From positions 1-46,775 of the forward strand of contig JABMPJ010000106.1 of the NCBI GenBank assembly GCA_013203785.1: a stretch of DNA of 46,775 nucleotides. Direction: 5' to 3'. This stretch comes from Lentisphaerota bacterium (GTDB lineage: Bacteria; Verrucomicrobiota; Kiritimatiellia; UBA8416; JABMPJ01). Under the pieces are notes generated by a model. The model searched no databases, was not told the DNA's origin, and saw only the letters and a list, made by a program, of their open reading frames with translations. Positions 4,147-41,786 of this stretch are shown here, piece after piece. Positions within the stretch are counted from its first letter, which is position 1. Each line of letters opens with the position of its first letter. The translations under genes and the position numbers were made by a program.

Positions 4147-4214
4147 GGCCCGCTCTGCTGAGGCAGGGGTGCCGTACACAACACTAACAAGACAAGACAA
4201 TGGGGGACGACAGG

Positions 4215-4982: not shown

Positions 4983-5040
4983 AGCAACGCCCACTCAACC
5001 CAAAGGTCACGACGTGCATGCCCCTGCGCCGGTCTCATAG

Positions 5041-6981: not shown

Positions 6982-7011
6982 GTTCCTATTTCCTGTGTGC
7001 GCACCAATCCC

Positions 7012-9543: not shown

Positions 9544-9550
9544 AGCACGC

Positions 9551-10765: not shown

Positions 10766-10792
10766 CAACCGCTACAACAAGAGGAATCCACC

Positions 10793-11797: not shown

Positions 11798-11827
11798 CCG
11801 ACTCCTCTTGGGACCATGGCATGATTA

Positions 11828-12979
11828 TTGGGTAACGAGATCGTTCGGATAACCGATCCGGCTACTGGCGAGGTGTGCGATGCAGAGATTTTCGTAGCCG
11901 CCCTAGGGGCGAGCCAGTACCTCTACGCTGAAGCGACCCGTACCCAGCAGCTTCCTGACTGGATCGGCTCACATGTTCGCACCTTTGAATACCTGGGCGG
12001 AGTAACCGAGATCGTGGTACCGGGCAACCTCAAAAGCGGTGTAACGAAAGCCTGCCGATACGAACCCGATGTCAACCCGACCTACGCGAATATGGCCGAC
12101 TATTACGGGATAGCTGTCATTCCTGCACGGCCCAAGAAGCCGAAAGATAAAGCCAAGGTTGAGTCCGGGGTGCAAATCGTTGAACGGGAAGTTCTAGCCC
12201 GCTTACGGGATCGCACGTTCTTCTCACTGGGCGAGCTGAACCAGGCCATCAGAGAGCTTGTGGCGGCCGTTAACACGCGTCCGTTCCAGAAACTGGATGA
12301 ATCGCGGCGGCAACTGTTCGAGGAGCTTGATCAGCCGGCATTGAAAGCTCTTCCATCGCGACGTTACGAGTACGGTGAGTTCTTTCTGCCCACGGTGAAC
12401 ATCGACTATCACGTGGAGCTACTCGGGCACTACTACAGCGTGCCTTATACCCTGAAGGGGCAGAAGGTTGAGGCGCGCCTAACCGCCCGCATGCTCGAGA
12501 TCCTGTATCGCGGTAAACGCGTTGCCAGTCATGTACGGAATGATCGCACGGGACACCATACGACGGATCCATCCCACATGCCCAAGGCGCACAGGGAGCA
12601 CATGGAGTGGTCTCCGAGCCGGATTACTCAGTGGGCGGGAACGATCGGATCGCACTGTGCCCTGGCAGCTGAAGAGATCATCAGGAGTCGGCAGCATCCC
12701 GAGCAGGGCTACCGCGCATGTCTCGGCCTTGTGAGGCTATCGAAGAGCTACGAGGCCAGCCGGGTTGATGCGGCCTGCCACAGGGCTTTAGCGTTGGAGG
12801 TCTGCACCTATCAGAGCATCATATCGATCCTGAAGACCGGCAAAGACTCCGAGCCGCTTCCGGGTGATGGTGCCGATCTTATGGGCTGCAATGTCCATCA
12901 CCAGAATGTTCGAGGCAAAGCCTATTACAGCACACAGAATGACACCCCAAAAAGAGAGGACCTGACACATGCTCAATGA
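11828..12979 (+). pseudogene. istA: IstA transposase, N-terminus deleted
   Basis: An open frame of 383 residues matches the C-terminal three quarters of IS21 IstA. It starts inside the DDE catalytic domain ([77 protein letters not shown]) and continues through the C-terminal region ([25 protein letters not shown]). The helix-turn-helix and the first catalytic Asp, normally just before this point, are absent. The TTG at 11828 is simply where the frame opens and probably not a real start. The 3' end overlaps istB by 11 bp, as in intact IS21. Confidence 0.87.
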
Positions 12980-13705
12980 CCAGACAATGACCCAACTCCA
13001 CGACATGAAGCTTCACGGTATGGCCGACGCGTATGGGGAGCAGCGGCAACAGCCTCAGATGGCCGAGATCGACTTCGATGAACGCCTTGGCATGCTGGTT
13101 GACCGACAGTGGCGCTGGCGCGAGGAACGGGCTCTTACGACGCGCCTTCGCACGGCCAAGTTCAAGATGCCCGCCTGCATGGAAGATATCGATTACCGTG
13201 CAAAACGGGGCCTGAAACGGGCTACGATGGATGCCCTTCGCAGTGGCGAATGGATCGGCTTCCATCAGAACGTCATTTTGACTGGCCCCACGGGAACGGG
13301 GAAGACGTTCCTGGCCTGTGCGGTGGGTACCAATGCCTGCCGGCAGGTTATCGGGTGAAGTACTTCGTGGCGGCCACACTCTTTCGGCTGCTACGCTCGG
13401 CACATGCAGATGGCAGCTACATGCGCCTGACGGGCCGGTTGGCCAAGACGGATCTGCTCATCCTGGATGACTGGGGCATGGAGACGCTCCAGGCATCGGA
13501 ATACCGCGATCTCCTGGAGATCCTCGATGATCGACAGGGCAAGGGAGCGACACTCATCACCAGTCAGTTCCCCGAGGAGCTGTGGCACGACACGATCGGC
13601 AACCCGACCGTTGCCGATGCAATCTTGGACCGGCTCGTCCACAACGCGCACAAGATCAAGCTTGAGGGAGAATCAATGCGCAAACCCAAGAATACCGCAC
13701 GATGA
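12969..13705 (+). pseudogene. istB: IstB helper ATPase, single-base frameshift
   Basis: IstB is the AAA+ ATPase that assists IS21 transposition. The first frame (12969-13358) runs through the Walker A motif GPTGTGKT and then stops after NACRQ. The continuation GYRVKYFVAATLFRLL...LLILDDWG...SMRKPK is in the next frame and is open to 13705. Losing one G near 13346 (CAGGTTATCGGG where CAGGGTTATCGGG would read through) explains the break. Apart from that the protein would be full length, about 245 residues. Either the gene is dead or the base is a sequencing error. Confidence 0.85.
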
Positions 13706-13717
13706 AACGGCCCAGCT

Positions 13718-13737
13718 CCTGGCACCTTCGTGCCAGG
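13718..13737 (+). terminator. Hairpin after istB
   Basis: A perfect 8-bp stem (CCTGGCAC/GTGCCAGG) with a CTTC loop begins 13 bp after the istB stop. A CTCTTT stretch follows about 10 bp later. It could end the IS transcript. A second perfect hairpin (GCCCCGT AA ACGGGGC, 13779-13794) lies downstream. Neither has a clean U tract. Confidence 0.45.
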
Positions 13738-13932
13738 CTTAGTAGGCCTCTTTAGAAGGAGGGCAAGAAGAGAACGTCGCCCCGTAAACGGGGCTCCGAT
13801 GGAGCCAGGAGAGCACTGACATCTTGACTCTTATCGGCCACTTATATAAACCACAACTACCAGCGTCGCTTCGCTCCGATTACCCGGCCGATATCATCCC
13901 GGAATCGGTGGCCGATTAGACCGGAATACGCA

Positions 13933-14592
13933 TGCGTGGGGCGAGTTCTCGATACGCTGGAAGAGAAGGGCCTCCGTGAGGACACCCTCGTCATCTACTG
14001 CTCTGATCATGGTGAACTGCTCTATCAACATGGGATTTGTGAGAAACACACGATGTTCGAGGCCGCTATATCCATCCCTTTGATCCTCTCTCTGCCGGGG
14101 CGGATCGCGGAAGGGATCTCATCCGACGCGTTGGTAGAGAATATAGACATCCTGCCCACGGCCATGAATATCGTTGGAATCGGCGTGCCGGAGTGGGTCA
14201 ATGGCGTCGACCTGTCACCGACCTTTGAAGGTGGCGACGTGAAAGAGCATGTGTTCTGCGAATACCATCACACGCTGGATGCGACTCGGATGCTCCGGAC
14301 GAAGAGGTACAAATTCATCTACACTGAAGATGATATCAACGAACTCTATGACATGGAGCATGATCCTGAAGAGAAATACAATTTGACCTTCTATCCGCAG
14401 TACAAAGAGATTGCCGCGCAGATGGAAGCGAAGGTGCTGGAGGACTGGGATCCGCCTGATGTGCCGGAATACGGGAAATGGAATGATCTCAACGAGCGCA
14501 AGCAGAAACAGATTCTGGACGGTCTGCTCATACAGAATGTCAGGCCAGATCCCCCACGCTTTGTCACGGAAAGGTGTGACACCGGGGAATAG
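13933..14592 (+). pseudogene. Sulfatase, C-terminal half only, cut by IS21
   Basis: The open frame from GTG 13936 gives 218 residues of a type I (formylglycine) sulfatase C-terminal half. It contains VGRVLDTLEEKGLREDTLVI, the metal-ligand motif SDHGELL, KHTMFEAAISIPLIL, and the late LYDMEHDPEEKYNL and PPRF motifs. The N-terminal half with the CxPSR modification site and the first metal ligands is missing, so it cannot be active. The coding sequence resumes directly at the right end of the IS21 element. Intact relatives are about 450-500 residues. It indicates that the ancestral cluster handled sulfate-ester sugars as well as the putative sulfonate. Confidence 0.88.
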
Positions 14593-14647
14593 GGCATGAT
14601 GTCACCAATTGGTTGGCCGCGTGCGTGCGGCTACCGTAGTTATTTAG

Positions 14648-14682
14648 GACGCCCTAGGTTTCAGATGTCTTCCAAGGGCGTC
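14648..14682. terminator. Inverted repeat between convergent genes
   Basis: An 8-bp perfect inverted repeat (GACGCCCT / AGGGCGTC, 14648-14655 and 14675-14682) lies between the ends of the sulfatase remnant and the second ROK gene, 4 bp from the ROK stop. The loop is 19 nt and there is no strong U tract, so it may act as a bidirectional terminator or only as a 3' stabilising hairpin. Confidence 0.45.
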
Positions 14683-14685
14683 GAG

Positions 14686-15903
14686 CTACCGTGTCGGCTT
14701 CCATTGGTCCACGACCAGGGCGGCGGCACCGAGGGCGCCACTGTAAGGGCCCAGCGCTGACATGGCGATGGAGGGGGGGGGGAGGCCTGTTGCTGCAAAA
14801 CAGGCGCGCGACACCTGAGCGATGGAGTTCAAGAAATCATCGCCAAGGGACGCCAGAGGTCCTGCGAGAATCACTTGCTCGGGTGCCAGGCAGAATGAGA
14901 GGTGCGCAATGGCCCAGCCCAGGCTGCCGGCAGCAGCATTGATGACGCTGCGGGTCAGGCGGTCGTGGGCGAGATAAGCATCGACGATGTGTTCGGCGTT
15001 CAGTGAACGGGACCGGTCGCCCAATGCTGAGCGGCGGCCTGCTGCAATGGCATGGGCCAGCGAGTCATGAATGGCGCGGACGGATGCAATCTCCTCGAGT
15101 TCGCGTGGACCGCTCTTCTGAATCGGGCGTAAACTGCCGTGGGATGTCGCCCTGTATACTGGGCATCGCCAGAATCCGATCTCCCCGGCTCCATCGGACA
15201 ATCCGCTGTAGAGTTGACGATTCACTACGATACCGGCACCAATCCCGCTCCGGACCGACAGGCAGGCAAATGAGTTGAGGCTCCGGCCCTGCCCAAACCA
15301 GAGTTCGGCCAGCGCCATAGCGTTGGCCGTGTTCTCGATGTAAACAGGCACATCGAAGCGTTCGGCAATCGGGCTCACCAGCGGCACGTTCTGGAATCCC
15401 TTGATGTAGCGGTATTCTCTCGCTGTGCCTTTGCTGCGGTCAACAGGGCCGGGTGAACCTATGCCGATGCCGAGCAAGCGAAGCAGTTTAGCGGGGAGGA
15501 CCTCCTCGATGGCCCGGACAATAGCATTCACGACGTCGTGCGCTGTGTCGGTGCGTCGAATGGGGTGGCGGGTCTGGGCCACAACGTTCTGCGCAAAGTC
15601 CATCGCGACGGCCAGTATCTCATCGGCATAGAAGTCGACCCCGATGAACTGCCCGGCCACGGGATTCAGGGCGATGCTGGTGCGGGGACGGCCAACCCCT
15701 GTTGCCGCTCGCTCTCCCTCGATCAGTATGCCTTCGTGCAACAAGCGATCAACGTAGGCGCCGATCGTGGTTGGCGAAAGCGTGAGGGCGTGTGAGAGCT
15801 CGATGCGCGACAATCCTCCTGCGGCCCGGATGTGTTTGACCAGCATCGCCTCTTGATCGGCAATCAGTGCGCCCTTTTTCTGCACGTCCCGTGATGGTTT
15901 CAT
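14686..15903 (-). CDS. ROK-family transcriptional repressor (second)
   Basis: The product is 405 residues. A winged HTH (residues about 15-70, LVKHIRAAGGLSRIELSHALTLSPTTIGAYVDRLL) precedes a ROK domain with GVDFYADEILAVAMD, GIGIGSPGPVD, ENTANAMALAELWFG and GIGAGIVVNRQLYSG. The zinc cluster is not recognisable after GEIGFWRCP. I prefer ATG 15903, with AGAGAGA before it, over the in-frame ATG at 15927. It is divergent from the deaminase-like gene at 16062, and the intervening DNA has a NagC/Mlc-like palindrome over the opposite promoter, so repression of the 16062 operon is the likely job. A run of ten C near its 3' end (14773-14782) encodes consecutive prolines. Confidence 0.87.
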   Translation of the reverse strand: MKPSRDVQKKGALIADQEAMLVKHIRAAGGLSRIELSHALTLSPTTIGAYVDRLLHEGILIEGERAATGVGRPRTSIALNPVAGQFIGVDFYADEILAVAMDFAQNVVAQTRHPIRRTDTAHDVVNAIVRAIEEVLPAKLLRLLGIGIGSPGPVDRSKGTAREYRYIKGFQNVPLVSPIAERFDVPVYIENTANAMALAELWFGQGRSLNSFACLSVRSGIGAGIVVNRQLYSGLSDGAGEIGFWRCPVYRATSHGSLRPIQKSGPRELEEIASVRAIHDSLAHAIAAGRRSALGDRSRSLNAEHIVDAYLAHDRLTRSVINAAAGSLGWAIAHLSFCLAPEQVILAGPLASLGDDFLNSIAQVSRACFAATGLPPPSIAMSALGPYSGALGAAALVVDQWKPTR

Positions 15904-29074: not shown

Positions 29075-30079
29075 TCAACGCACGCCAGCAGGCTGGATCG
29101 GATCGAGTTGAAGACGCCGGGCACAGAAGAGCCCATTCCATTGTGCGCCTCGCATCGCGCGCGCGCCGGTTTTGCGTTTGACCCCGAAATTGCTGCGGTA
29201 ACGTTGGAAGAGGTCGTCTACGAAGGTGGGGGAGCCCAAGATCATTCCGTCGCTGAAATACCGCACGCGACAGTGAACGGCCTCGCCTGTCGTCAGACGG
29301 CCTCCGGAAGCCAGAACTGCCTCCACGCGCACAGGATCAATCCCGCCCCGATGGCGTCCCGGCTCCTTCTCACCATGATCGTAGAGCAAGCGCCGGTAGT
29401 GGCGGCCCAGTCGTGACCAGGTGGCTATGCTCTCATCCAGCGACTGCATCACACGGATCAGTCCCTCACGGGCCACTTTCACGCCTGCTGTCGCTTCACC
29501 ATAGCCGCAAAACCGATACTGCTGGGGGTCGTCCACGATCCGTGCACGAACCGCATTCAGGTCAATATAGGCCGCCAGAGTCCATAACGCCCGGCGGGAA
29601 CCTTCGAAGAGCACACTTTTGAAGCGGGATTCCCACAGTGTGCCTTGCCGACCATGCCGACGGTTGTAGGACATTGTGAAGCGTTGTTTCAGGGTCTTAA
29701 CGAATTCGGAGAGGTTGTACATGCGCCGGGTGTAGCGGGCCTTCAGCTCTTCAGCACTCGCATGTAGACCCTTGGCCCGCAAGTCGGCCAGCTCGGCTGC
29801 CACGTGGGCCACAACAGGCTGCTCGTACAGATAGGCCAGTCTGTGGATGAGGTCCTGATCACTGACGGGTTCCGGCTGGGGAACTCGCAGGGCAATATGC
29901 CAATGGTTATCGAGCACGGCCCAGGTCAGGATCTGGCACCCTGAAAAGGCTTCCACAGCGCGCATCAGCTTCCGGAAGCGCTCTTTTTCGCCATCATTCA
30001 GAACCAATCGCCGGTCTACAATCCGGCTGACGATGTGATAGAATGCCTCTCCCTCTCCAAGAATACGGGCCACTCTCAT
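29075..30079 (-). CDS. REP-associated tyrosine transposase (RAYT, IS200-like Y1 family)
   Basis: The product is 334 residues from ATG 30079 (MRVARILGEGEAFYHIVSRIVDR). The HUH motif is visible as NHWHI (residues about 85-89, after LTWAVLD). The region LKQRFTMSYNRRHGRQGTLWESRFKSVL carries the candidate catalytic Tyr. The protein is full length, ending in a C-terminal tail FCARRLQLDPI characteristic of the family. RAYTs are single-copy HUH enzymes that cut and move REP-type palindromes. Flanking inverted GGGGACAGAC motifs and a 29-bp repeat just upstream of the start fit that biology. Confidence 0.9.
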   Translation of the reverse strand: MRVARILGEGEAFYHIVSRIVDRRLVLNDGEKERFRKLMRAVEAFSGCQILTWAVLDNHWHIALRVPQPEPVSDQDLIHRLAYLYEQPVVAHVAAELADLRAKGLHASAEELKARYTRRMYNLSEFVKTLKQRFTMSYNRRHGRQGTLWESRFKSVLFEGSRRALWTLAAYIDLNAVRARIVDDPQQYRFCGYGEATAGVKVAREGLIRVMQSLDESIATWSRLGRHYRRLLYDHGEKEPGRHRGGIDPVRVEAVLASGGRLTTGEAVHCRVRYFSDGMILGSPTFVDDLFQRYRSNFGVKRKTGARAMRGAQWNGLFCARRLQLDPIQPAGVR

Positions 30080-30110
30080 AATGCTGCTCCTTTGGGCTTC
30101 GTGGAGCACG

Positions 30111-30230: not shown

Positions 30231-31724
30231 TCATACCGCGGTGGCACTATAGACCACATCGCATGCGTACCGGCCATCCGTGGCCCCAAGGGCGACGGTC
30301 AATCGCAGGGGCGCATGGCAGGATAGCAGGCGGATCTTGAGGTGATACCAGCGGCCCGCCGCAAGCTGGACAGGAATAGAGGCGCCGCCTTCGGTACGAT
30401 GGAACGCTGGAACGAGTTCTCGTCGGCCATGGTAGTTCAGAATCGCTCGGCCATCCAGCCAGGCCGTCAGGCCGGTACTCGCACAGATCATGAGCTGACC
30501 GTCTAGGTCTTCGGGAACACGCAGCTGTGTTAGAAGATAGAGCGTATCGCCGGGCGCCTCGATGAAGGAATCCAGGTTCAGGTGGATGCCGGCGGACCGC
30601 AGAACCCGTTCCGTAAAGTCCTCCGGGTGGACCGAGGCACGCGCCACGTCATCCGGCTCACGGGCATAGCCGGTTGCCACCGGGTCACAGAACACGAGCC
30701 ACGAATGGCCATCGTCGATCGGGTCTCCTGCCGCGTCCGCTGTCATCCCCGCCGGACTATCCGAAAGTGCTGCGAAGTCACCGACGGCCAGGGCCATAAC
30801 TCTCTCCGTGGCCTCGTCCACGGTCTTGGGCAGTGGCAGGCTCTGCAGGCACTCACTCACCACGAGCTCATCTCCCACGGTCCTGCGCCAATCGGCCGGA
30901 ATCCCCTCTTCGCCCATCAGAATGCCCAGGAAGGCGGCACTGGTGGCCCCCGTGCAGTCGGTATCCATGCCGCAGTTCACGCTCATGAGAACGGAGGTTT
31001 CGAAATCGCCGTTGCCATACAGAAGGCCGAACACAATGAACGCCAGATTCATGCTGACATCCGTGAAGTTGTCGCTGCCGAACCGCGCCATGATGTCGTC
31101 CCGGACGGCATGTGGCGGCACCCCGGCGGCATGTAGCTCACAGACAAAACGTACGGCGTGGCTCACCCGACAGTCGCGCGCAATATACGTGAGCCCTGTC
31201 TGGATAGCTTCGAGAGGTGACTCGCATTCGAAGGCCGCGCTTTCGGCGGCGGCCAGGAACATCTCGGCCCACACCCCGTTGCCGTGATGGTCGACAATGG
31301 CGTCTTCTCGGGCAAAGGCCGCAGCCAGTGCCGGGCGACCGGGGCAGAGACAGGCCCACAGTTCCGACCGGATGGCGGCACCCATGCCATCTCCAAACCA
31401 ATTATTGTGTATCCCGCTCAGGGGGGGCTGCATGCCTCGCGCCATGTTCCACTGTGCAATCCCGTATTCATCGGGTAGGCAGGTGTAATGCTTCCATGCT
31501 TCGGTCAGGTGGTGCGACCGCAACCCGACCCCGTACTTTTCCACCCAGACCAGCCACAGCATCTGAAGCTCGAGGTCGTCGTTCGGAACGGCCGCAGAAC
31601 AGAGCGATGTGCGATCCAGTGTGAGCGGCCGGGCAACGCCCTCGTACGGCATACCCAGCGTACCGCCAATGCCCTTGCCGGCCCAGCAGCCTCGGATCTT
31701 CGACTCAAGGAGAGACCTATCCAT
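30231..31724 (-). CDS. ADP-ribosylglycohydrolase-fold protein with C-terminal domain
   Basis: The product is 497 residues. The first 330 match the all-helical ADP-ribosylglycohydrolase (DraG/ARH) fold: KIRGCWAGKGIGGTLGMPYEG, VPNDDLELQ (first metal Asp pair), and CGMDTDCTGATSAAFLGI, the counterpart of GGDTDT. Magnesium-binding residues are therefore kept. Residues about 360-497 are rich in beta strands (LYLLTQLRVPEDLDGQLMICASTG) and look like a PA14/jelly-roll carbohydrate-binding domain. In polysaccharide-degrading bacteria this fold often occurs in sugar loci, where its substrate is probably not protein ADP-ribose. It overlaps the SGNH gene by 8 bp and ends the five-gene minus-strand operon. 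Confidence 0.85.
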   Translation of the reverse strand: MDRSLLESKIRGCWAGKGIGGTLGMPYEGVARPLTLDRTSLCSAAVPNDDLELQMLWLVWVEKYGVGLRSHHLTEAWKHYTCLPDEYGIAQWNMARGMQPPLSGIHNNWFGDGMGAAIRSELWACLCPGRPALAAAFAREDAIVDHHGNGVWAEMFLAAAESAAFECESPLEAIQTGLTYIARDCRVSHAVRFVCELHAAGVPPHAVRDDIMARFGSDNFTDVSMNLAFIVFGLLYGNGDFETSVLMSVNCGMDTDCTGATSAAFLGILMGEEGIPADWRRTVGDELVVSECLQSLPLPKTVDEATERVMALAVGDFAALSDSPAGMTADAAGDPIDDGHSWLVFCDPVATGYAREPDDVARASVHPEDFTERVLRSAGIHLNLDSFIEAPGDTLYLLTQLRVPEDLDGQLMICASTGLTAWLDGRAILNYHGRRELVPAFHRTEGGASIPVQLAAGRWYHLKIRLLSCHAPLRLTVALGATDGRYACDVVYSATAV

Positions 31725-32409
31725 CGCACGCGTCCTCCAGGAGTCGGTGTTGCCGGATCGTTTGCACGGTGACCTCTGCGGTCAGCCCATGGCCCTCTGG
31801 TCCCGGATGTATCCAGTCGGTCTGATCGATCCACCTGCCCAGTGGTGTGCCCTGTTGCTCGGCCTTCAGCGTCGCCGCATATACGTTAGCGAGCGGCAAA
31901 TCCAATTCAGCGGCCAGGTCCACCGCAGCCTCAAGGTAGCGCGCGCGATCCTCGGCCATCCACCTCCTGATCGAGCGCGGCGTGTGCATGAAATTCGGCA
32001 CGGTCTCAAGAAAGTGCTCGCCGTCGGGAGCAATCGTCACAACCATCACGATCAAGGCGCGGGTCTGGCTTCTGATGGTGGCAACCATCTTCCGGTGCAT
32101 ATCGCAGAAATGGGTCAGGCCGTCGCCCTGCAGGCCATCTGATCCGTTGTTGTAGGCAAAGCTTTCGAGCAGCACGAGATCGGGATCAAGCGAAACGAGG
32201 GAGGGGTAGGGCCGCGCATTGAACTCGTATGCATGGGTCAGGCGCCAGAGCCCATACCCCACGCGTGTGCCCCCGACACCTTGATTGACGATCTCAAAGG
32301 CGCGGGCGGGAAATGCCACCGCCAGCGCGGTTGCCAGCGCCGGACAGCCCGCCCCCGCCGTCTCGGTCATGGAGTCGCCGGTGGCCACGATTCTCACAGC
32401 TTTATCCAT
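31717..32409 (-). CDS. SGNH/GDSL-family hydrolase (first)
   Basis: The product is 230 residues without signal peptide. Block I reads VATGDSMTE (Ser13), block II NQGVGGTRV supplies the Gly, block III LLESFAYNNG is where the Asn lies, and block V DWIHPGPEGH holds the catalytic Asp-x-x-His. It is thus a complete cytoplasmic SGNH esterase, probably removing acyl groups from a sugar. It sits between the DUF4838 gene (50-bp gap) and the ADP-ribosylglycohydrolase-like gene (8-bp overlap). Confidence 0.88.
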   Translation of the reverse strand: MDKAVRIVATGDSMTETAGAGCPALATALAVAFPARAFEIVNQGVGGTRVGYGLWRLTHAYEFNARPYPSLVSLDPDLVLLESFAYNNGSDGLQGDGLTHFCDMHRKMVATIRSQTRALIVMVVTIAPDGEHFLETVPNFMHTPRSIRRWMAEDRARYLEAAVDLAAELDLPLANVYAATLKAEQQGTPLGRWIDQTDWIHPGPEGHGLTAEVTVQTIRQHRLLEDACDG

Positions 32410-32459
32410 TCGTCTGAAACTTTCCCCTGTGGCTTGGCACAGGCACGCACGCGACCGAC

Positions 32460-35288
32460 TCAGCCGCGTGGTTCATCTTCACTCACCAGTGGCACCCAGC
32501 GTCCGTCACAGTCGCCCACACGCCCGAATTCGGCCGGACCGTAGGTTTCGCCGCTGCGCCACACATGCTCGATTAACACTTCAAGTCCGTCCACCGTGCC
32601 GGGATCTGTACCCAAGGCTTCCCAAGGCAATACAAGCGTGGCTGTCCAGCCTGATGGTTCCTTCGCCACATCAACGCGCCATGTCGGCTGCCACGCCAAG
32701 TCCACATGCTTCAGGAAATTCGGGCGGCGGACCATGTGATAGCGCCAGCGCGGATCCCACTCCACACGGGCTGCCTCGCCGATGTCGCCTCCCACCTTGC
32801 CGTCCAGCTGATTGCCGCGCGGATCGAATCCGAACACACGGGCCTCTGGGCCCCCTTGGCGACGCACATATAGCAGCACGTGCTCCATGATCTCGGTCGG
32901 ATCGGCACTCAGCATGGTGTCGCGTTGAAGCGTGCGGATGCGTGAATTGGGCAGGCCCGACTCCTGCCCGTGAAACACCATCTCCACGCCCTCCTCCGTC
33001 TGTCGCGCCTCAAGGGTCAGGGCATCGGTCATGAGTCCACCGTGCGGCTCAATCGGCATCGGGAAGCGTGCCGGAATCTGGGCGGTTTGCCATGCGTCCT
33101 TCCTCACCTTGAGCTGCGGCTGGGTCAGCAACGCGGGGCGGTTCGCCAGGAGCTGTGTCAGACGGAGCGTCTCCTCGAAGACTGCGATGTCGGTGGCAAG
33201 GATCATCGCGTCAGCACTGCCCGCCTCAGGCTCCAGGACGGGGAGCGTGCGCGTTACTTCGGCAACAGCTGCCGCACGCTGCCTGTACATCGTCAGGGCC
33301 GCGCGACCGGCCGCGATATGTGCACGCGCGGCCTCGGGCTTACTGTTCAGCAGGGCACGATCGGCCGCCCATACGGCGGCTTTGCCGCCTGCAAGCCCCT
33401 GCGCCGCGTGCAGGGTTCGGCAGAGCAGCCCCACCGCACCGGCGAAGCGGGGCGGCACGTTCGGTGTCGTCTGCAGCGCCGCGAGCAATGCCGCGACCGC
33501 CGCTTCAGATGATTGAGCTTGCTCCGCCATCACCGGCAGCAGGTCGGTCAGCAGGGCCCGTTCGTCGCTATAGATGAAATGCGACTCGTAATTCGTGACC
33601 CGTGCGACGCGCGGCTGAACGATGAAGCTGACGGAGACATTGCGCCGCGCAATATCCGCCATGGCGGGCGCCAAGGCCTCCCCATAGAGCTGCGTGGTCG
33701 CGGCCTCAAGCCATGGGTTTACCACGTTGGCGGGTGCCGTGAGCCAATCGGTCTCAGTTCGAAAGTCATAGGCCTCATCCATCACCGCGGAGCCGGGCGC
33801 GTCCAGGCGCCATGCGTACTCGTTGTTGAACAGCTCGACGAGGTGTCGCGTGGGAGGCTTGTCGTGGCCCGTGGCAAAAATGATGTCACGCCGGTCGTCA
33901 AAATCCCATGTCCGGGTGAAGCGTCCCAGCGTATGGAACCCCGTCTGCCAGGCACGCGCCGGGAACTGCCACCACCACAGCGTGAGGGGCCGGTTGCCGA
34001 AGGCTTCCTTGTACTGGCGGGCTGGCTCCCGCCCGTGCTCCCGCAGGCAGATATGCACATCATGTGGCAGTAGGTCGTTCATGCGCTCAAAGTACCGCCG
34101 CGCCCGTTCATTCATGCGCGCCATGACATCCGGCGCCAGACCACCGTCGCGCCATTCGTGAACGAGGCCCATGCGATCTTTGTCATAGAACGCCTTGGCT
34201 TTATAGGGCACCGGAACCAGTTCGATCCGGCAGGAGGGATTCACGGCCCGGATCGCTGTGTAGTAGTGCATGAAGATAGCGGTGTCTGCGCGTGCCCGGT
34301 TATCGCCGAAGCGCGTGCGACAGCTCTCGCAGCGCTGGCTCCACATCTCGGGATCCGGCCCCCCATGATCGAGCAGATGCAGCATGAAGTGATCGGTCGG
34401 CAGGTCTACCATCTTCTGTGCCATTTGCGCCGCACCCTTGCGATGCGTCTCGTCATCGCTCCAGCAATACTCGCTCGTACCATGCACCACACAGCCGCGC
34501 AGGGACGTCGCAGCCGAGCCCACGTAGGGTGCCTTAATCAGAGTGAGTGTCACCCCTCTGGGCCGCATGTAGTTCCCCAGCCGGTCCCACAGGGCTGCCT
34601 GATGCGCGTTGCGGACGACCGGCGTGAAGGGTTCCAGCCCGTTCATCTTGTTCCACACCATCCAGTCCACCAGCTCGCGCATCCCGGATTCGAAACGGGT
34701 ACCCAGCGCTTCGGCCTCGGGGCTGCGCTCGCGCACCTTGCCGTCATAGTCCATGTAGAGCGCGCGCATTTCGGGGAAGCCCACGACCATCCGATGCAGC
34801 ACATCCGGCCAGTCACGCACGGTGCGAGGTGTCAACACCACCTCGCCCCCCGTGCGCTCAAGGTAGTGCGCCAGCGTCACAGCGCCATACAGCGCGCCGA
34901 GGCTGTCGGCCCCTATGACATTCACGCGAACGGATGAGACGGCTGTCGTGACATCAATGTGGTAGCCCTGCGGCTGCCCCAGGGAGGGATCCACCGAGAT
35001 ATCGATCCACACCGCCGGAGCGGTCGTCGGCGCATTCATGCGCAGGGGAATCGGCGTGCCGCCCAGCGCCGCGATACGCTGGTTGAACACCTCGGCGGCC
35101 GCCGCGAGGGATGGATCGGATGTGTCGGCGGTGAGCAGGCAGTCGTCCTCCACCAGGCTCAGCGCAGGTCTGGCCGGGCCCACGGTGCGCGGGGCCGGCA
35201 ACACAGGGGCCCCCTCAGACGGGTCCGGTTGGCCCAGTGCGGCCATAGCCACCCATAGCGCAAGCGTCACGAACGGCCTCCCCATCAT
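32460..35288 (-). CDS. Secreted DUF4838-domain protein (putative glycosidase)
   Basis: The product is 942 residues with a signal peptide (MMGRPFVTLALWVAMAALG). Residues about 40-150 resemble the alpha/beta domain that precedes GH20-type catalytic domains (DSLGALYGAVTLAHYLER). The middle contains the DUF4838 region, including FMLHLLDHGG, a CESCRTRFGD cysteine pair and IFMHYYTAIRAVNPSCRIELVP. The C-terminal 180 residues look like a CBM9-type carbohydrate-binding domain (PRFPMPIEPHGG to VLIEHVWRSG). DUF4838 proteins are abundant in Verrucomicrobiota and Planctomycetota and are presumed glycoside hydrolases, with no firm substrate known to me. A good GGGGAGG site precedes the ATG. Confidence 0.82.
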   Translation of the reverse strand: MMGRPFVTLALWVAMAALGQPDPSEGAPVLPAPRTVGPARPALSLVEDDCLLTADTSDPSLAAAAEVFNQRIAALGGTPIPLRMNAPTTAPAVWIDISVDPSLGQPQGYHIDVTTAVSSVRVNVIGADSLGALYGAVTLAHYLERTGGEVVLTPRTVRDWPDVLHRMVVGFPEMRALYMDYDGKVRERSPEAEALGTRFESGMRELVDWMVWNKMNGLEPFTPVVRNAHQAALWDRLGNYMRPRGVTLTLIKAPYVGSAATSLRGCVVHGTSEYCWSDDETHRKGAAQMAQKMVDLPTDHFMLHLLDHGGPDPEMWSQRCESCRTRFGDNRARADTAIFMHYYTAIRAVNPSCRIELVPVPYKAKAFYDKDRMGLVHEWRDGGLAPDVMARMNERARRYFERMNDLLPHDVHICLREHGREPARQYKEAFGNRPLTLWWWQFPARAWQTGFHTLGRFTRTWDFDDRRDIIFATGHDKPPTRHLVELFNNEYAWRLDAPGSAVMDEAYDFRTETDWLTAPANVVNPWLEAATTQLYGEALAPAMADIARRNVSVSFIVQPRVARVTNYESHFIYSDERALLTDLLPVMAEQAQSSEAAVAALLAALQTTPNVPPRFAGAVGLLCRTLHAAQGLAGGKAAVWAADRALLNSKPEAARAHIAAGRAALTMYRQRAAAVAEVTRTLPVLEPEAGSADAMILATDIAVFEETLRLTQLLANRPALLTQPQLKVRKDAWQTAQIPARFPMPIEPHGGLMTDALTLEARQTEEGVEMVFHGQESGLPNSRIRTLQRDTMLSADPTEIMEHVLLYVRRQGGPEARVFGFDPRGNQLDGKVGGDIGEAARVEWDPRWRYHMVRRPNFLKHVDLAWQPTWRVDVAKEPSGWTATLVLPWEALGTDPGTVDGLEVLIEHVWRSGETYGPAEFGRVGDCDGRWVPLVSEDEPRG

Positions 35289-35311
35289 GCTCCGCCTCCC
35301 CTTCGTCCGGA

Positions 35312-36232
35312 CTACTTGATCAGCATCAATGTGCCCGTGGGCGGGATGTAGTAGAATTGAACCAGCTCCGGATCCTCCGTGGCGTCAAAGCCGCCCCAGT
35401 TGCTGTTGATGAACGCTCCGGTCGTGCCGTTGCACTCAATCAGCCTCTCGTATCCAGCGCCCGTACTCGTGATAAACAGGTTCCCCGTCTCCGGGTGCCA
35501 TGAGAGACCGAGGGGATTGCGACAGGTCCCATAGGTCAGTGTTGTGAAGTTGCCGATATGTGCGCCCGTGACCCCATTGTACTCCCCGATCAGAGCCTGT
35601 GAGCTGCTGGCTATGAATAGGTTCCCGTTGGGACCGTAGCGGATCTCACCGGGATTGCTCAGACTACCCGATCCTGTCGTGACGAGGGTGTTCGTATGCA
35701 CAGGGATGCCCCCCACAAACGCATACTCCTCGACGGTGTTGGCCGTCGTGGCGACAAGCATCCTGCCGTTATTGGGGTTGGTTGTGATGCCACGCGGCGC
35801 TCCGCTCGGGGTATAGATCGTTTTGATGTTCGTTCCTGCGCTGTTGTACTCCAGCATGCGTCCATTGCCGCTCGACGTAACAAAGAGGTTTCCGTTCGAG
35901 GCGAAATGCAGAAAGACAGGGGTGACGGCTCCACTGGAGAACGTCCCCATATCAGTCAGCGACGGATTGTACTTGCGGACCGTGCCATCCGAGAGCGAGG
36001 CGTAGAAATACCCGTTCGTATCCTGAGTGATGTCACGCCCCACCGCCAACTGACCCACCTCCGCGCCTGTGGTCGCGTCGTAGTAGGTGATGGGATTTCC
36101 TGAATCGCCTGCCACGAACAGCAGCAGCCGCTGTGCATCGCACGGCATGGTCATCATCGTCAACACGCCTGCGGCCACGGCCGCGAGCGACCATCTCTGT
36201 CCTCTTGTCCCTTCTTTTGTTGTCATTTTCAT
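35312..36232 (-). CDS. Secreted beta-propeller (NHL/Vgb-like) protein
   Basis: The product is 306 residues from ATG 36232, preceded by AGGAGG; a longer frame from 36262 has no such site. A signal peptide (LAAVAAGVLTMMTMPCDA) is followed by six repeats of about 40 residues (NGYFYASLSDGTVRKYN, NGNLFVTSSGNGRMLEYN, NGNLFIASSSQALIGEYN, TGNLFITSTGAGYERLIECN). This is a typical NHL/virginiamycin-lyase-like propeller. It ends shortly after the last blade (PTGTLMLIK) without a PEP-CTERM anchor. It lies 23 bp before the DUF4838 gene, so it is probably a ligand-binding or structural partner. Confidence 0.78.
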   Translation of the reverse strand: MKMTTKEGTRGQRWSLAAVAAGVLTMMTMPCDAQRLLLFVAGDSGNPITYYDATTGAEVGQLAVGRDITQDTNGYFYASLSDGTVRKYNPSLTDMGTFSSGAVTPVFLHFASNGNLFVTSSGNGRMLEYNSAGTNIKTIYTPSGAPRGITTNPNNGRMLVATTANTVEEYAFVGGIPVHTNTLVTTGSGSLSNPGEIRYGPNGNLFIASSSQALIGEYNGVTGAHIGNFTTLTYGTCRNPLGLSWHPETGNLFITSTGAGYERLIECNGTTGAFINSNWGGFDATEDPELVQFYYIPPTGTLMLIK

Positions 36233-36307
36233 TGCCTGCGTCCTCCTGTTTTCGGTCACCATGACTCACCTTGTGAGCCGAGCCATTATTCTATCACCAT
36301 TCGACCT

Positions 36308-37288
36308 TCAATGCACGATGCCTGGGGCCTCCGCCCCTCGGGCGGCTTGCTGCAGAAGCCTCCAGTTTTGAGCATTCACGGCATAGTCCGGCTGCTCAAA
36401 TGTTATCCGTCCTTCGTAGCCCATCTCACACATCGCCTGAATCACGGCCAGCCAGTTCACCGTCCCAATCCCGATCGGGTTGTGCCAGTCGCGGTCGGCA
36501 AAGTTGTCATGAAAGTGCGTCTCGCGCATGCGGGGGCCGAGTCGGCGAATAACCTCAGCCGGATCGACGCCGTCGCGGTGACAGTGCCCGGCATCGACAC
36601 ATACGCCCAGATTGTCGCGTTCGATCTCGTCCATGAAGGCCATCAGCGCATCAACATCCTGCGAAACACATGGTAGCTCGGTCGTGGTCACTTCCACTGT
36701 TACAGTGATGCCATGGGCCGCCGCCGCGTCGCAGAGCTGCCGGTAGGCCAGAATACAAGCGGCCCGCACTGCGGCCGCGCCCCCGTAGCGCCGCAGCCCT
36801 TCGACCATCAGCTCGTCCTGCGAGACCGTACCCTCCAGATAGTCCACCGCCATCTGCCCGAGGTACGCGCTGGAGGCCAGTCCGAACATCCATCCGGCAT
36901 GCGTGGTGACATATCGCATGCCCATGAACGCGGCCGCCTGAATCAGCCGCTCGTGAATGGGCCGAACCCATTCCAGAGTTTCGCCGGGCGGGGGCAGAAG
37001 CTGGATGAAATGGGACGACTCGATAGTCAGGCTGGCGTCGCTCACGATGCGCCGCACCTGTTCAAGCTCGGAGCGGGGGCGCTCAACCAGCAGGTTACGG
37101 TCTTCGCGCGCCAAGATGCGATCAGGAGCGACATTGGAGTCAAGCGGGCTGATGAGAAAGAAGATGTCGCTAAAGTAGACCCCCGTATAGCCGAGATCCC
37201 TCATTGCGTGGCAGTGCTGCGCCAAGCGATCCGGATCAAGCGTCCCCAGCGAGAGCGTTCCCGCAAGAGTGTCACATCGACTCTTCAT
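36308..37288 (-). CDS. Sugar phosphate isomerase/epimerase (xylose-isomerase-like TIM barrel)
   Basis: The product is 326 residues from ATG 37288 with AAGGAA upstream. It is an AP-endonuclease-2/xylose-isomerase-like TIM barrel. Metal-site residues appear in VEVTTTELP (Glu), GVCVDAGHCHRDG (Asp, His), ETHFHDNF (His) and the final ITFEQPDY (Glu). Family members isomerise or epimerise free sugars, keto-sugars or inositols. It is the first gene of the minus-strand arm and is divergent from the LacI regulator, from which it is separated by a shared operator. The reading frame remains open upstream to 37762, but that part is antisense to the LacI gene. Confidence 0.87.
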   Translation of the reverse strand: MKSRCDTLAGTLSLGTLDPDRLAQHCHAMRDLGYTGVYFSDIFFLISPLDSNVAPDRILAREDRNLLVERPRSELEQVRRIVSDASLTIESSHFIQLLPPPGETLEWVRPIHERLIQAAAFMGMRYVTTHAGWMFGLASSAYLGQMAVDYLEGTVSQDELMVEGLRRYGGAAAVRAACILAYRQLCDAAAAHGITVTVEVTTTELPCVSQDVDALMAFMDEIERDNLGVCVDAGHCHRDGVDPAEVIRRLGPRMRETHFHDNFADRDWHNPIGIGTVNWLAVIQAMCEMGYEGRITFEQPDYAVNAQNWRLLQQAARGAEAPGIVH

Positions 37289-37349
37289 CACGATGAATTT
37301 CCTTATAGGGTAGTCTGACACCGCCTCAAAAGACACCCCTAAAAAATGA

Positions 37350-37368
37350 TTGAGCAACTGTTGCTTAA
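37350..37368. promoter_or_regulatory. LacI-type operator shared by divergent promoters
   Basis: TTGAGCAACTGTTGCTTAA is a 19-bp palindrome with a single mismatched pair. It overlaps the -35 and spacer of the + strand promoter (37350-37378) and covers the predicted start site (about 37367) of the minus-strand promoter (37374-37403). Occupancy would block both, which fits a LacI-family repressor encoded next door. Confidence 0.65.
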
Positions 37369-37378
37369 TTCGTATTAT
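37350..37378 (+). promoter_or_regulatory. Promoter of the LacI regulator gene
   Basis: TTGAGC (37350-37355) and TATTAT (37373-37378) have the ideal 17-bp spacing. Transcription would start near 37385, 60 bp before ATG 37445. The leader contains two direct TTGTTTCAG repeats (about 37410-37430) just before the AGGAGG ribosome binding site. Confidence 0.6.
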
Positions 37379-37403
37379 GCAGCAGTTGACAAGCACAAAG
37401 CAA
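37374..37403 (-). promoter_or_regulatory. Promoter of the isomerase to ADP-ribosylglycohydrolase arm
   Basis: On the minus strand TTGCTT (37398-37403) and CATAAT (37374-37379) are spaced by 18 bp. The predicted start near 37367 falls inside the palindromic operator, about 80 bp before the isomerase ATG at 37288. Confidence 0.5.
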
Positions 37404-37444
37404 GAGATTGTTTCAGCGGATATTGTTTCAGGAGGAAAGCGCGA

Positions 37445-38452
37445 ATGGCGGAATCTAAGGCCAAAAATAGGACTATGACGATTCGCACGATCGCTACGCT
37501 TGCGGGCTGTGCGCCCTCGACCGTGTCGCGGGTGTTGTCGGGGCGCTACGGCAATGTCCGGGTCAGTCCGCCGGTGCAGGAGCATATTCTGGAGATCTGC
37601 CGTCAACACAACTACCACCCCAACATTCATGCGTCGCGCGCGTTCTCCAAGCGCTGCGGCGTGCTGGGTCTGGCGGTTCAGAAGCTGAGCCACTTTGATG
37701 ACGGGAATCTCTCGCGCTACGTCGACGGCTTGCACGAAACCCTCTCCCCGCTCGGCTACCAACTCCTGCTTCTTTCAGCCAGCGAGGAGTGGATCGCCGC
37801 AGGCGAGCACCTCGCCGCCTTTCGACGCCGCGAGATGGACGGCATCTTTGTGTGGGGTCACTATGGCGACCCACGCTGGCTCGACAGCCTGGCGGAACAT
37901 GGCTTTCCTTTCATTGCGGCCGCCAACCGTGTGGGCAATCATCCCTCCGCCATCTGTGATGAGGCCGCAGGCATGCAGGCCCTGGTCAACCATTGCCGCA
38001 GCCAGGGCGCGCAACGTCTGCTCTATCTCTCCGGCTGCGAGACGATCGACTGCCCGCACCGTCGGCGCCATGCCTTTGAGCTCGCCGCAACCGACCTAGA
38101 CGCCCGGGTGGTGACGTTGGAGGGTTTTACCATCAGCGACGGACACCGTGCCGCACCCACAGTGGCCGACTGGCGGCCGGACGCCGTCCTCTGCGTCAAC
38201 GACGCCACCGCCGTCGGGGTCATCATGGGCCTGAAGGAGACGGGCGTTGCCGTGCCCGAAGACATTCGCGTGGCGGGATGTGACAATTCGGCGCTGGCAC
38301 CTTACATGTTTCCAGCGCTCACAACCTATGATTCAATGGCTCGGGAATGTGGCGCCGAAAGTGTTAGGGCCATGGATAGCCATCTTGGCCAAGGTGAACC
38401 GTTGACCTCCATCAAGTTGACCCCCACGCTTCACATCAGGGAATCGGCATGA
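37445..38452 (+). CDS. LacI-family transcriptional regulator
   Basis: The product is 335 residues from ATG 37445, with AGGAGG upstream. The helix-turn-helix is at residues about 11-35 (MTIRTIATLAGCAPSTVSRVLSG), followed by a hinge (HPNIHASRAFSKRCGVLGL) and a periplasmic-binding-protein-like effector domain (LLLLSASEEW, DGIFVWGHYGD, VLCVNDATAVGVIMGLKETGVAVPEDIRVAGCDNSALAPYM). It is convergent with nothing and divergent from the isomerase operon. A palindrome between the two suggests it represses both arms and itself. The stop overlaps the HAD gene by 4 bp. Confidence 0.92.
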   Translation: MAESKAKNRTMTIRTIATLAGCAPSTVSRVLSGRYGNVRVSPPVQEHILEICRQHNYHPNIHASRAFSKRCGVLGLAVQKLSHFDDGNLSRYVDGLHETLSPLGYQLLLLSASEEWIAAGEHLAAFRRREMDGIFVWGHYGDPRWLDSLAEHGFPFIAAANRVGNHPSAICDEAAGMQALVNHCRSQGAQRLLYLSGCETIDCPHRRRHAFELAATDLDARVVTLEGFTISDGHRAAPTVADWRPDAVLCVNDATAVGVIMGLKETGVAVPEDIRVAGCDNSALAPYMFPALTTYDSMARECGAESVRAMDSHLGQGEPLTSIKLTPTLHIRESA

Positions 38453-39231
38453 GCACAGTTGACCGCCAACCGGACGGGGCAGAGATGAACAACAGGCTGC
38501 AGCCCCGAATGATATTATTCGATATCGACGCGATGATCGTCGATCCTGTGCCCGGCGGCGAGGACCCGTCCGAGCAGCGGCCCCTCTTGGCGATCATCGC
38601 GCATGCGCTGGCCGCACGCGATGGCATCCCGTATAGCCACGCCCGAGCGATGGTCGAGACCTTTGCCGACGACTTGGTCTGGTGGGATTATCCCGACTTC
38701 ATCGCGGCCTTTAACCTCGATCCCACGTTGGTGTGGCCGGCGATTCGCACCTGGCACCGCGCGAACCTCTTTGTGCACGATGATGCCGTCGCCTGCGTGG
38801 AGGCCTTGGCTGAGGCCGGATATCCGATGGCGATTGTGAGCAACAACCCCGTGGTCGGCTGCCTCCTCAAGCTGGAGCGAGCGGGACTCGGAACGCTTGG
38901 CGGCACGCCTCATTTCTCACGCCTCTTCGGCTCGAACATACTTCGCGGACAGAAATCCGCCCCGGCCTTCTGGCAGCGCTGCCTGTGTCATCTCGACGTT
39001 CCTGCCATGGACCTCCTGATGGTCGGCGACCACCCGCACGAAGACTGCGAGGTGCCCCGCTCCCAGGGCGTGGGTCATTTTGCCCTGATTAACAGGTCTG
39101 GAGCAGCCGGGGTCACCCGCGAAGGGCCGGTGATGCAGCTCAGTGACCTTCGCCTGCTGCCGGGACTCTTACTCGCATTCAATCGCTCCACGGTTGAAGG
39201 AACGGGACAACGCGCCCCTATACACCCTTGA
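38449..39231 (+). CDS. HAD-superfamily phosphatase
   Basis: The product is 260 residues. Motif I is FDIDAMIVD (nucleophile Asp25, acid/base Asp27), motif II IVSNNPV, motif III a Lys in RGQKSAP, and motif IV GDHPHEDCEVPRSQGV, so it should be active on a phosphorylated metabolite. A helical cap lies between motifs I and II. It is translationally coupled to the LacI gene (ATGA overlap). The last ten codons (to TGA 39231) run into the 29-bp repeat at 39207, so the natural C-terminus may have been altered by arrival of that repeat. Confidence 0.85.
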   Translation: MSTVDRQPDGAEMNNRLQPRMILFDIDAMIVDPVPGGEDPSEQRPLLAIIAHALAARDGIPYSHARAMVETFADDLVWWDYPDFIAAFNLDPTLVWPAIRTWHRANLFVHDDAVACVEALAEAGYPMAIVSNNPVVGCLLKLERAGLGTLGGTPHFSRLFGSNILRGQKSAPAFWQRCLCHLDVPAMDLLMVGDHPHEDCEVPRSQGVGHFALINRSGAAGVTREGPVMQLSDLRLLPGLLLAFNRSTVEGTGQRAPIHP

Positions 39232-39327: not shown

Positions 39328-39909
39328 ATGCAGACAGTTGCACTCATCGGAGACTCGATCCGTATGGGGTATGAGGAGTCGGTTCGCAACGAACTCTCGG
39401 GCTGGGCGGACGTTTGGACGCCGGAACAGAACGGCGGGACGAGTGAGAATATTCTGGCCCACCTCGACGAGTGGTTGGCCACTGGGCACCCCTCCATACT
39501 CCACATCAACTGTGGTCTGCATGATCTGAGGAAGGAATTCGGGCAGGACACGCCTGCCGTTCCTCTGGACCGGTATGCAGAGAACGTGCGAACCATCTTG
39601 ACGCGGACCAAGACAGAACGCGAACTCACCGTGATCTGGGCGCTGACCACCCCGGTGAATCAAGAATGGCACCACAAGAACAAATCTTTTGATCGTCTGG
39701 AAACGGACGTGATCGCCTACAACCTTGTTGCCGCCAAGATCGCCGGAGAATGGGATGTTGTCGTCAACGACCTCTTTGCCACCGTCATGTCAGCGGGGCG
39801 CGATACTGTGCTGCTGCCAGATGGAGTCCATTTCAAGCCGGAGGCCTACGCGCTCCTGGGAAAGACTGTGGCCACCTGCATCAAGAACGTCGCAGTCGAA
39901 TTGCCGTGA
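39328..39909 (+). CDS. SGNH/GDSL-family hydrolase (second)
   Basis: The product is 193 residues. Block I LIGDSIRMG contains the Ser, NGGTSENI is block II, HINCGLHDL holds the block III Asn, and LLPDGVHFKPEAY supplies the Asp-x-x-His pair. No signal peptide is present, so it acts in the cytoplasm, as does the first SGNH hydrolase in this locus at 31717, with which it shares only the family motifs. AAGGAG precedes the ATG by 9 bp. It lies about 100 bp after the HAD gene, with the 29-bp repeat between them. Confidence 0.88.
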   Translation: MQTVALIGDSIRMGYEESVRNELSGWADVWTPEQNGGTSENILAHLDEWLATGHPSILHINCGLHDLRKEFGQDTPAVPLDRYAENVRTILTRTKTERELTVIWALTTPVNQEWHHKNKSFDRLETDVIAYNLVAAKIAGEWDVVVNDLFATVMSAGRDTVLLPDGVHFKPEAYALLGKTVATCIKNVAVELP

Positions 39910-39986
39910 GGGAGAGATGGTTCAACGCTCTACTGTGTACGGCTAGCAACCGTCGCATCGTTTAAACGTTGAGCTCAGGGGGATCC

Positions 39987-41786
39987 ATGACACGACCCGG
40001 AATTGTCAAAGGCGTCGTTCCGTATGAGGGTGGCTGCCGTTTCGCGGTGTGGGCGCCCCACGCCGATGAAGTGTACGTGGTGGGCTCCTTCAACGACTGG
40101 AACAAGGACGCGCACCCCCTCGCTAGGCAGCCGGACGGCGTCTGGTCGGCCGACGTGCCGCGCGCCACACCGGGCGACGAGTACCGTTTCCGTCTCATCG
40201 CGCAGGGCCAGGAGCTGTCTCGAATCGATCCCTATGCTCGCCGGGTCACCACCTCCGTCGGCAATGCCATCATCACTCCCCCCGTTTCTCGTAAGCGCGC
40301 AGATGCCTTCACGCCTGTGCCTCTCAATGAGATGGTCATCTATGAGCTGCATATTGGCACTTTTGGCAAGAAGACGGCCCAACACGGTCCCGGCAATCTG
40401 GAAGGCGCGATCGAGCGGCTCGACCATCTGGCGGAGCTGGGTGTCAACGCGCTGGAAGTGATGCCCCTCGCGGAGTTCGCGGGTGGCTTTTCGTGGGGCT
40501 ATAATCCAGCACAGATGTTCGCCGTAGAGAGCGATTACGGCACACCGCGTACGTTCAAGGACTTTGTGGATGAAGCCCACAGCCGTGGCATCGCCGTCAT
40601 TGTGGACGTGGTGTACAACCACATGGGACCAAGCGATCTGGGGCTGTGGCAGTTCGATGGCTGGAACGAGAACGGCAAGGGCGGCATCTACTTCTACAAT
40701 GACTGGCGCGCCCAGACGCCTTGGGGCGAAACGCGGCCAGACTATGGACGTAAGGAAGTCAGGGAGTATCTGCGTGACAATGCCCTAATGTGGGTTCGCG
40801 ACTATGGCGTGGACGGGCTGAGGTGGGACGCGACGGCATACATTCGCAACGCACAGGGACACGACAATGACCCGGAAAGCGACCTCCCCGACGGCTGGTC
40901 GCTAATGCAATGGATCAATGCAGAGATGCGCAAGGCCAGCACGACGGCTTGCAGCATTGCGGAGGACTTGCTCAGCAACCCGTTCCTTACCAAGGCTGTG
41001 AAAGAGGGCGGCGCAGGCTTCAACGCCCAATGGGACAGCCAATTCGTCCATCCGCTGCGTGCCGCGCTCTGCGCGCCTGAGGACGCCTCCCGGAATATCG
41101 ATGCCGTGCGCGACGCCATTCTGCATCGCTACTATCTCAATGCCTTTGAACGGGTCATCTACACAGAATCCCACGACGAAGTCGCCAACGGAAAGGCGCG
41201 CGTTCCGGAGGAGGTCGATCCTGGCCATGCGTCTTCGTGGGCCGCCAAGAAGAAGTCGGCCTTGGGGGCCGCCATTGTGCTCACGGCACCTGGTATACCG
41301 ATGATCTTCCAAGGTCAGGAATTCCTGGAGGACGACTGGTTCCATGACCAGGACCCATTGGATTGGTCCAAGAAGAAGCGATTCTCCGGCATGTTTCGGC
41401 TCTATCAGGACTTGATCGCGCTCCGGCTGAACCAGCGCGGTAACACTGCGGGTCTCTGCGCGCAGGAGGTCGCGGTCTACCATGTGAACAATGAGCACAA
41501 AGTGCTCGCCTATCACCGCTGGGGTAGGGGTGGTCGTGGGGATAGTGTGGTCGTGGTCGCCAATTTTTCCGCCGACCCGCAGCAGGCCTACCGCCTCGGA
41601 TTCCCCTCGGATGGCAGATGGCTCGTGAGGTTCAACAGCGATAGCAAATTCTACGACAAAGACTTCGGCGATGTTGGGCCCGCCGAGGTCATCGCCTCTG
41701 CTCCATTCCAAGACGGACTGCCGAGCAGTGGAACGCTGACGGTTGCCCCGTACAGCGTGCTTATTCTCTCACAAGCGAAGGAGTGA
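39987..41786 (+). CDS. GH13 alpha-glucan enzyme, branching-enzyme type
   Basis: The product is 599 residues from ATG 39987 (GGGGGA upstream). Residues about 10-95 are a CBM48 domain (FAVWAPHADEVYVVGSFNDWN). The GH13 barrel shows the four conserved regions: DVVYNH; GLRWDATAYI with the nucleophile Asp; SIAEDLLS with the acid Glu; TESHDEVAN with the third Asp. FSWGYNPAQMFAVESDYGTP is typical of branching enzymes, and the C-terminal beta domain ends LTVAPYSVLILSQ. A glycogen branching role fits best; maltooligosyltrehalose trehalohydrolase is the main alternative. It is the last gene of the + strand arm of the LacI locus. Confidence 0.88.
   Translation: MTRPGIVKGVVPYEGGCRFAVWAPHADEVYVVGSFNDWNKDAHPLARQPDGVWSADVPRATPGDEYRFRLIAQGQELSRIDPYARRVTTSVGNAIITPPVSRKRADAFTPVPLNEMVIYELHIGTFGKKTAQHGPGNLEGAIERLDHLAELGVNALEVMPLAEFAGGFSWGYNPAQMFAVESDYGTPRTFKDFVDEAHSRGIAVIVDVVYNHMGPSDLGLWQFDGWNENGKGGIYFYNDWRAQTPWGETRPDYGRKEVREYLRDNALMWVRDYGVDGLRWDATAYIRNAQGHDNDPESDLPDGWSLMQWINAEMRKASTTACSIAEDLLSNPFLTKAVKEGGAGFNAQWDSQFVHPLRAALCAPEDASRNIDAVRDAILHRYYLNAFERVIYTESHDEVANGKARVPEEVDPGHASSWAAKKKSALGAAIVLTAPGIPMIFQGQEFLEDDWFHDQDPLDWSKKKRFSGMFRLYQDLIALRLNQRGNTAGLCAQEVAVYHVNNEHKVLAYHRWGRGGRGDSVVVVANFSADPQQAYRLGFPSDGRWLVRFNSDSKFYDKDFGDVGPAEVIASAPFQDGLPSSGTLTVAPYSVLILSQAKE

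Follow-up and report, generated by a model that had tools for sequence, protein, structure and literature searches.

A LacI-linked operon with an ARH-fold protein of altered active site, a candidate glycan-use module of the Kiritimatiellota

Background

In the ADP-ribosylhydrolase ARH3, two Mg ions are bound by Thr76, Asp77, Asp78, Asp314, Asp316 and Thr317, and the two metals hold the 2'' and 3'' hydroxyls of the ribose (PMC8141533). In E. coli, the genes for a putative transporter and a sugar kinase accompany that of YegU, an ARH protein, whose repressor, GgaR, responds to ADP-glucose (PMC10819704). On the side of glycan degradation, a DUF4838 protein has been annotated as GH163 (PMC9870897), and one GH163 enzyme of B. 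thetaiotaomicron removes the LacNAc antennae of N-glycans (PMC10154615). Here, an ARH-fold protein is described from an operon that also encodes a DUF4838-like protein.

The operon and its extent

The window, by which the whole stretch of 46,775 nucleotides analysed is meant, carries five co-directional ORFs on the minus strand between 30231 and 37288, all five where the preliminary description had placed them, and two further genes of the unit divergent from these:

30231..31724, minus strand: ARH-fold protein, 497 aa (PF03747, 2.9e-35; AlphaFold2; Foldseek)
31717..32409, minus strand: SGNH hydrolase, 230 aa (PF13472, Lipase_GDSL_2, 6.7e-13)
32460..35288, minus strand: GH20b-domain/DUF4838-superfamily (GH163-type) protein, 942 aa (PF02838, 4.1e-7; hhalign)
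35312..36262, minus strand: NHL/beta-propeller-like protein, secreted, 316 aa (ScyF/ScyE models; positional equivalence)
36308..37288, minus strand: AP_endonuc_2 TIM-barrel sugar isomerase/epimerase (EPI), 326 aa (PF01261, 8.2e-27)
37349..37369, no strand: operator-like palindrome of 21 nt at the divergent promoter, ATTGAGCAAC-T-GTTGCTTAAT
37445..38452, plus strand: LacI-family regulator (PF00356, 1.1e-9; PF13377, 1.6e-26)
38449..39231, plus strand: HAD phosphatase of the subfamily found beside ARH (PF00702, 1.9e-7; linkage)

From the isomerase gene to the ARH gene the intergenic gaps are 45 nt, 23 and 50, followed by an 8-nt overlap. The last three agree with what had been reported before, while the first had been given as 75, a value obtained only if the second ATG of the propeller gene is taken as its start. 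The operon had also been limited to these five genes. It is larger than this, as the divergent LacI and HAD genes (37346-39231, plus strand) had been missed, and these are counted in the unit because their linkage is conserved in other genomes. The lacI ORF opens at 37346, with its likely start at 37445 behind an AGGAGG, and the HAD gene overlaps lacI by 4 nt. The operator-like palindrome is present a single time in the genome, at the divergent promoter in the window. The sole other site in the genome with three mismatches or fewer lies inside clpX and was dismissed, and no operator sequence common to the homologous loci was found when one was searched for.

No transporter is encoded adjacent to the operon, SSF genes being found elsewhere in the same genome. 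Directly downstream of the ARH gene is an IS200/Y1-type transposase-like protein (29075-30109). Downstream of the HAD gene, 39328-41786 encodes a second SGNH protein and a GlgB-like GH13 protein; a homologue of this SGNH protein adjoins ARH in locus L046.

In the isomerase, Glu199, Asp232, His258 and Glu298 are invariant in 6 orthologues, and these we take, from knowledge of the family, to be the ligands of a Glu-Asp-His-Glu metal site. The HAD protein has the DxD, S/T, K and acidic motifs, with D25, D27, S131, K169 and E198/D199 invariant in 9 orthologues.

Conservation of the module

The expectation that these families would cluster elsewhere is borne out, as EPI, DUF4838/GH163-type, HAD, ARH and LacI genes are found together in further members of the Kiritimatiellota and, for part of the set, in Lentisphaerota and Planctomycetota, so that the recurrence of the cluster is more than chance. 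In several Kiritimatiellota the recurring order is LacI, EPI, PEP-CTERM protein, DUF4838, pilin, HAD, (MGH1/GH63-like), ARH, SSF. The module of G070 is complete except for the GH63-like gene, that of G087 lacks the GH63-like gene and has no recognised SSF, and in G126, G105 and G035 the order is kept as far as the contigs extend. Contigs C30 and C15 of G126 are probably adjacent, judging from the contig ends. The gene order of the window is that of the Kiritimatiellota module, except that the propeller stands where the PEP-CTERM protein would be, SGNH replaces the pilin, and HAD lies on the LacI side. In the Lentisphaeria locus L097 the order is SGNH, pilin, HAD, DUF4838, DUF4838, GH63-like, EPI, ARH, LacI, while L106 (from a MAG labelled Crocinitomicaceae) and the Phycisphaeraceae locus L107 have HAD and EPI close to ARH. 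Pseudopilin-like proteins recur within the module in both the Kiritimatiellota and the Lentisphaerota (L034:7967-8599, L097:955-1674, and others).

HAD matches below 1e-30 are present in only 5 of 192 related genomes, and in 5/5 the gene is beside ARH. Set against the nine genomes with the long form of ARH, which were counted after the data had been seen, this linkage gives a Fisher value of 6e-8. On the ARH tree, in which the placement of two outgroup rows with very long branches is not trusted, the HAD label requires at least 5 changes, through well-supported branches, which means that the linkage of ARH and HAD is not one inherited block. No HAD was found on plasmids. Elsewhere in the genome of the window, a further cluster (G000:C101, locus L202, approximately 2235-15168) carries a HAD paralogue, 28-30% identical, without ARH; the paralogue is accompanied there by a GH4-like gene, a GntR/LacI-like regulator and a secreted protein of CBM9 type, and in one search a TGA was seen within the matched stretch.

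The secreted proteins and the SGNH hydrolase

The 942 aa protein has an N-terminal signal-like stretch and a beta-rich C-terminus. It had been labelled DUF4838, which does not stand as a Pfam match, since PF16126 is not matched at 0.01 and only Glyco_hydro_20b passes; the label does stand at the profile level, where hhalign against true DUF4838 proteins of the homologous clusters gives a probability of 98.2% over 393 columns. Because of this profile-profile match, the protein is, by sequence comparison, a divergent member of the DUF4838 superfamily. It may be a secreted glycosidase. It is only remotely related to the DUF4838 protein of the other modules, and its nearest homologues in related genomes do not adjoin ARH. 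A sequence search of the PDB returned nothing significant (best 0.16), and the AlphaFold model built with remote homologues as input has a pLDDT of 42, so no fold is claimed for this protein.

The propeller-like protein matches the ScyF/ScyE models at approximately 5e-7 to 1e-6, below the cut-off, and is the positional counterpart of the PEP-CTERM protein in the homologous modules. The SGNH hydrolase has no signal peptide by inspection and is 55% identical to the SGNH protein of the L097 cluster.

The ARH-fold protein and its subfamily

The 497 aa protein, which has no signal peptide by inspection, is made up of a catalytic ARH domain (approximately aa 1-315) and a C-terminal PA14-like beta domain (approximately aa 338-493). 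It is a member of the superfamily, matching ADP_ribosyl_GH (PF03747) over positions 1-286/287 at 122.8 bits, against a cut-off of 26.2. The AlphaFold2 model (pLDDT 92, pTM 0.92) is matched by Foldseek to ARH3, DraG and the T. thermophilus ARH with a TMt of approximately 0.7, so that the predicted fold is the all-helical fold of ARH. The C-terminal beta domain that had been suggested for this protein is real, being mostly beta in the model (residues 340-493), with pLDDT for the most part above 90. Its Foldseek matches are PA14 and related beta domains, including the PA14-bearing 3ac0 at an E-value of approximately 3e-4, and Pfam PA14 is reached in the homologue of L034 only, at 5e-4, below the cut-off.

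Three positions in the window protein mark it out in the alignment with its 27 full-length homologues and with the controls, six DraG-like proteins from related genomes:

31575..31583, minus strand: NDD motif, aa 48-50, in place of the TDD metal ligands of ARH3/DraG (N48 in 27/27, T/S in 6/6 controls)
30954..30965, minus strand: D254-T-D256-C257 motif, Cys replacing the Thr metal ligand (ARH3 Thr317; C257 in 27/27, T in 6/6 controls)
30396..30401, minus strand: H442-R443, within the C-terminal domain (unchanged in 27 full-length homologues)

The correspondence of residues with ARH3 was taken from the motif alignment with the controls. Further shifts relative to these are a changed GNG/MR loop region and TH replaced by DH. 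The protein thus carries NDDL and DTDC where ARH1, ARH3 and DraG have TDDT and DxDT, and because of this difference in the metal-ligand motifs it is not filed here as a canonical ADP-ribosylhydrolase. Nor do the equivalog-level models claim it, as dinitro_DRAG scores 22.4 bits (cut-off 337) and Tri1 20.3 (cut-off 490). In the wider subfamily, for which at least 547 candidate loci were confirmed, NDD is present in 82/82 sequences, a count biased by the inclusion of NDD in the search pattern, and DxDC, which was not in the pattern, in 81/82. On these alignments, the window ARH belongs to a distinct subfamily of PF03747 with a consistently altered active site. No characterised NDD/DxDC member was found in the open-licence literature searched, which does not prove that there is none.

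Membership of PF03747 and the ARH3/DraG fold would also fit an ordinary ADP-ribosylhydrolase, one reversing the ADP-ribosylation of a pathway protein, as DraG does, or recycling ADP-ribosylated material. This is improbable, given that the motifs differ at many positions (TDDT, GNG/MR loop, TH, DxDT) from both the six DraG-like controls and YegU, and that no ADP-ribosyltransferase was recognised among the module genes scanned. A search of the window's own genome for a DRAT transferase was empty too, but its controls gave no signal either.

Loss of both Thr metal ligands across the subfamily, together with the attachment of a sugar-binding type of domain, might instead indicate that the protein is non-hydrolytic or regulatory, a sugar sensor or pseudo-enzyme with the PA14-like domain binding the sugar. 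We consider this improbable. The four metal-binding Asp residues (D49, D50, D254, D256) and E28 are kept in 27/27 full-length members, and invariant polar residues have been gained (E86, E121, D141, D145), neither of which would be expected of a pseudo-enzyme; regulation, moreover, is already supplied by LacI. P439, H442 and R443, all in the C-terminal domain, are likewise invariant in 27/27, which hints that the domain contributes to the pocket instead of serving as a loose tether.

Neighbourhood of the subfamily and proposed function

In 80 named loci, 22/108 of the genes adjoining a subfamily ARH encode regulators, 11 LacI and 11 AraC. Among the distal genes of the same loci the figure is at most 2/101, with none among those listed and at most one of each possible. 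As a simple script was used to call the ORFs of these loci, single neighbours may be wrong. GH63/MGH1, fucosidase, GH42 and SSF families recur beside the ARH gene, and as the accessory glycosidases differ (GH63-like, GH38, fucosidase, GH42), a single substrate is not indicated. In the Paenibacillus loci L129 and L134, two subfamily ARH genes flank ABC sugar transporter-like genes in one operon. GH38 alpha-mannosidase genes adjoin or are near the subfamily ARH in L040 and L099.

That HAD is among the most tightly linked partners raises the possibility of salvage rather than glycan degradation, with the ARH protein hydrolysing a cytoplasmic nucleoside, nucleotide-sugar or sugar-phosphate metabolite and HAD removing the phosphate, and the setting of YegU and GgaR in E. 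coli offers a parallel. YegU, however, retains both Thr residues (TDDT and DTDT) and is outside the NDD/DxDC subfamily, and large secreted DUF4838-type proteins, SGNH, GH63-like and GH38 enzymes in or near the modules also speak against salvage, which we therefore see as unlikely.

We put at about even the chance that this is a LacI-controlled glycan-use operon of the Kiritimatiellota, with the ARH-fold protein acting as a metal-dependent glycosidase in the cytoplasm. In such a pathway the secreted divergent DUF4838/GH163-type hydrolase and the propeller-like protein would act on an extracellular glycan, a fragment of which would be imported by a transporter encoded elsewhere, an SSF sodium:solute symporter being part of homologous modules. 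The cytoplasmic SGNH hydrolase would take an ester group off this fragment, and the di-metal ARH-fold protein, its pocket formed in part by the PA14-like domain, would hydrolyse the glycosidic bond of a sugar whose vicinal diol chelates metal. Once released, this sugar may be isomerised by the AP_endonuc_2 protein, and HAD may dephosphorylate an intermediate. A diol-chelating sugar is suggested as substrate by analogy with ARH chemistry only, and we infer the catalytic activity of the ARH protein, the bond cleaved, the order of the steps and everything said here of substrates. The earlier proposal that this fold has been turned to sugar hydrolysis is to that extent supported in part, by the conserved clustering, by the sugar regulator and glycosidase neighbours and by an active site unlike that of the canonical ADP-ribosylhydrolases.

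A broader proposal, to which we give somewhat less than an even chance, is that the NDD/DxDC proteins make up a new glycoside hydrolase family on the ADP-ribosylhydrolase fold, with an Asn/Cys-modified di-metal site and, within one large clade, a domain of PA14 type, present in sugar regulons of at least the Kiritimatiellota, Lentisphaerota, Planctomycetota, Verrucomicrobiota, Bacillota and Armatimonadota. Proteins of PF03747 are routinely annotated as ADP-ribosylglycohydrolases, and if the subfamily acts on glycans then hundreds of these annotations are wrong. It would also mean that a carbohydrate enzyme has been made out of the fold of a signalling enzyme, and it would point to a testable gap in the glycan-use pathways of poorly cultured phyla, for which the module provides a defined gene set and a likely LacI operator.

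Comparison with known systems

The window ARH shares with ARH3/ARH1 and DraG (PF03747) the fold, the four metal-binding Asp residues and the N-terminal Glu. It differs from them in having Asn for Thr76, Cys for Thr317 and a different diphosphate-loop region, as well as in its extra PA14-like C-terminal domain and its context in a sugar operon. Similar in context is E. coli yegTUV (the GgaR regulon), where one operon encodes the ARH-fold YegU together with a putative transporter and a sugar enzyme. YegU, however, is 334 aa, with canonical motifs and without the C-terminal domain, and yegTUV has a sugar kinase where the window operon has the isomerase and HAD. With regard to the GH163/DUF4838 hydrolases, a true DUF4838 protein (3e-40) is at the position of the 942 aa protein in the homologous modules, whereas the 942 aa protein itself has diverged too far to match PF16126 and begins with a GH20b domain. 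The K. marxianus GH3 beta-glucosidase (3ac0) likewise has a PA14-type beta domain joined to a sugar hydrolase, but its catalytic domain is unrelated to that of the window ARH and the match is confined to the C-terminal domain.
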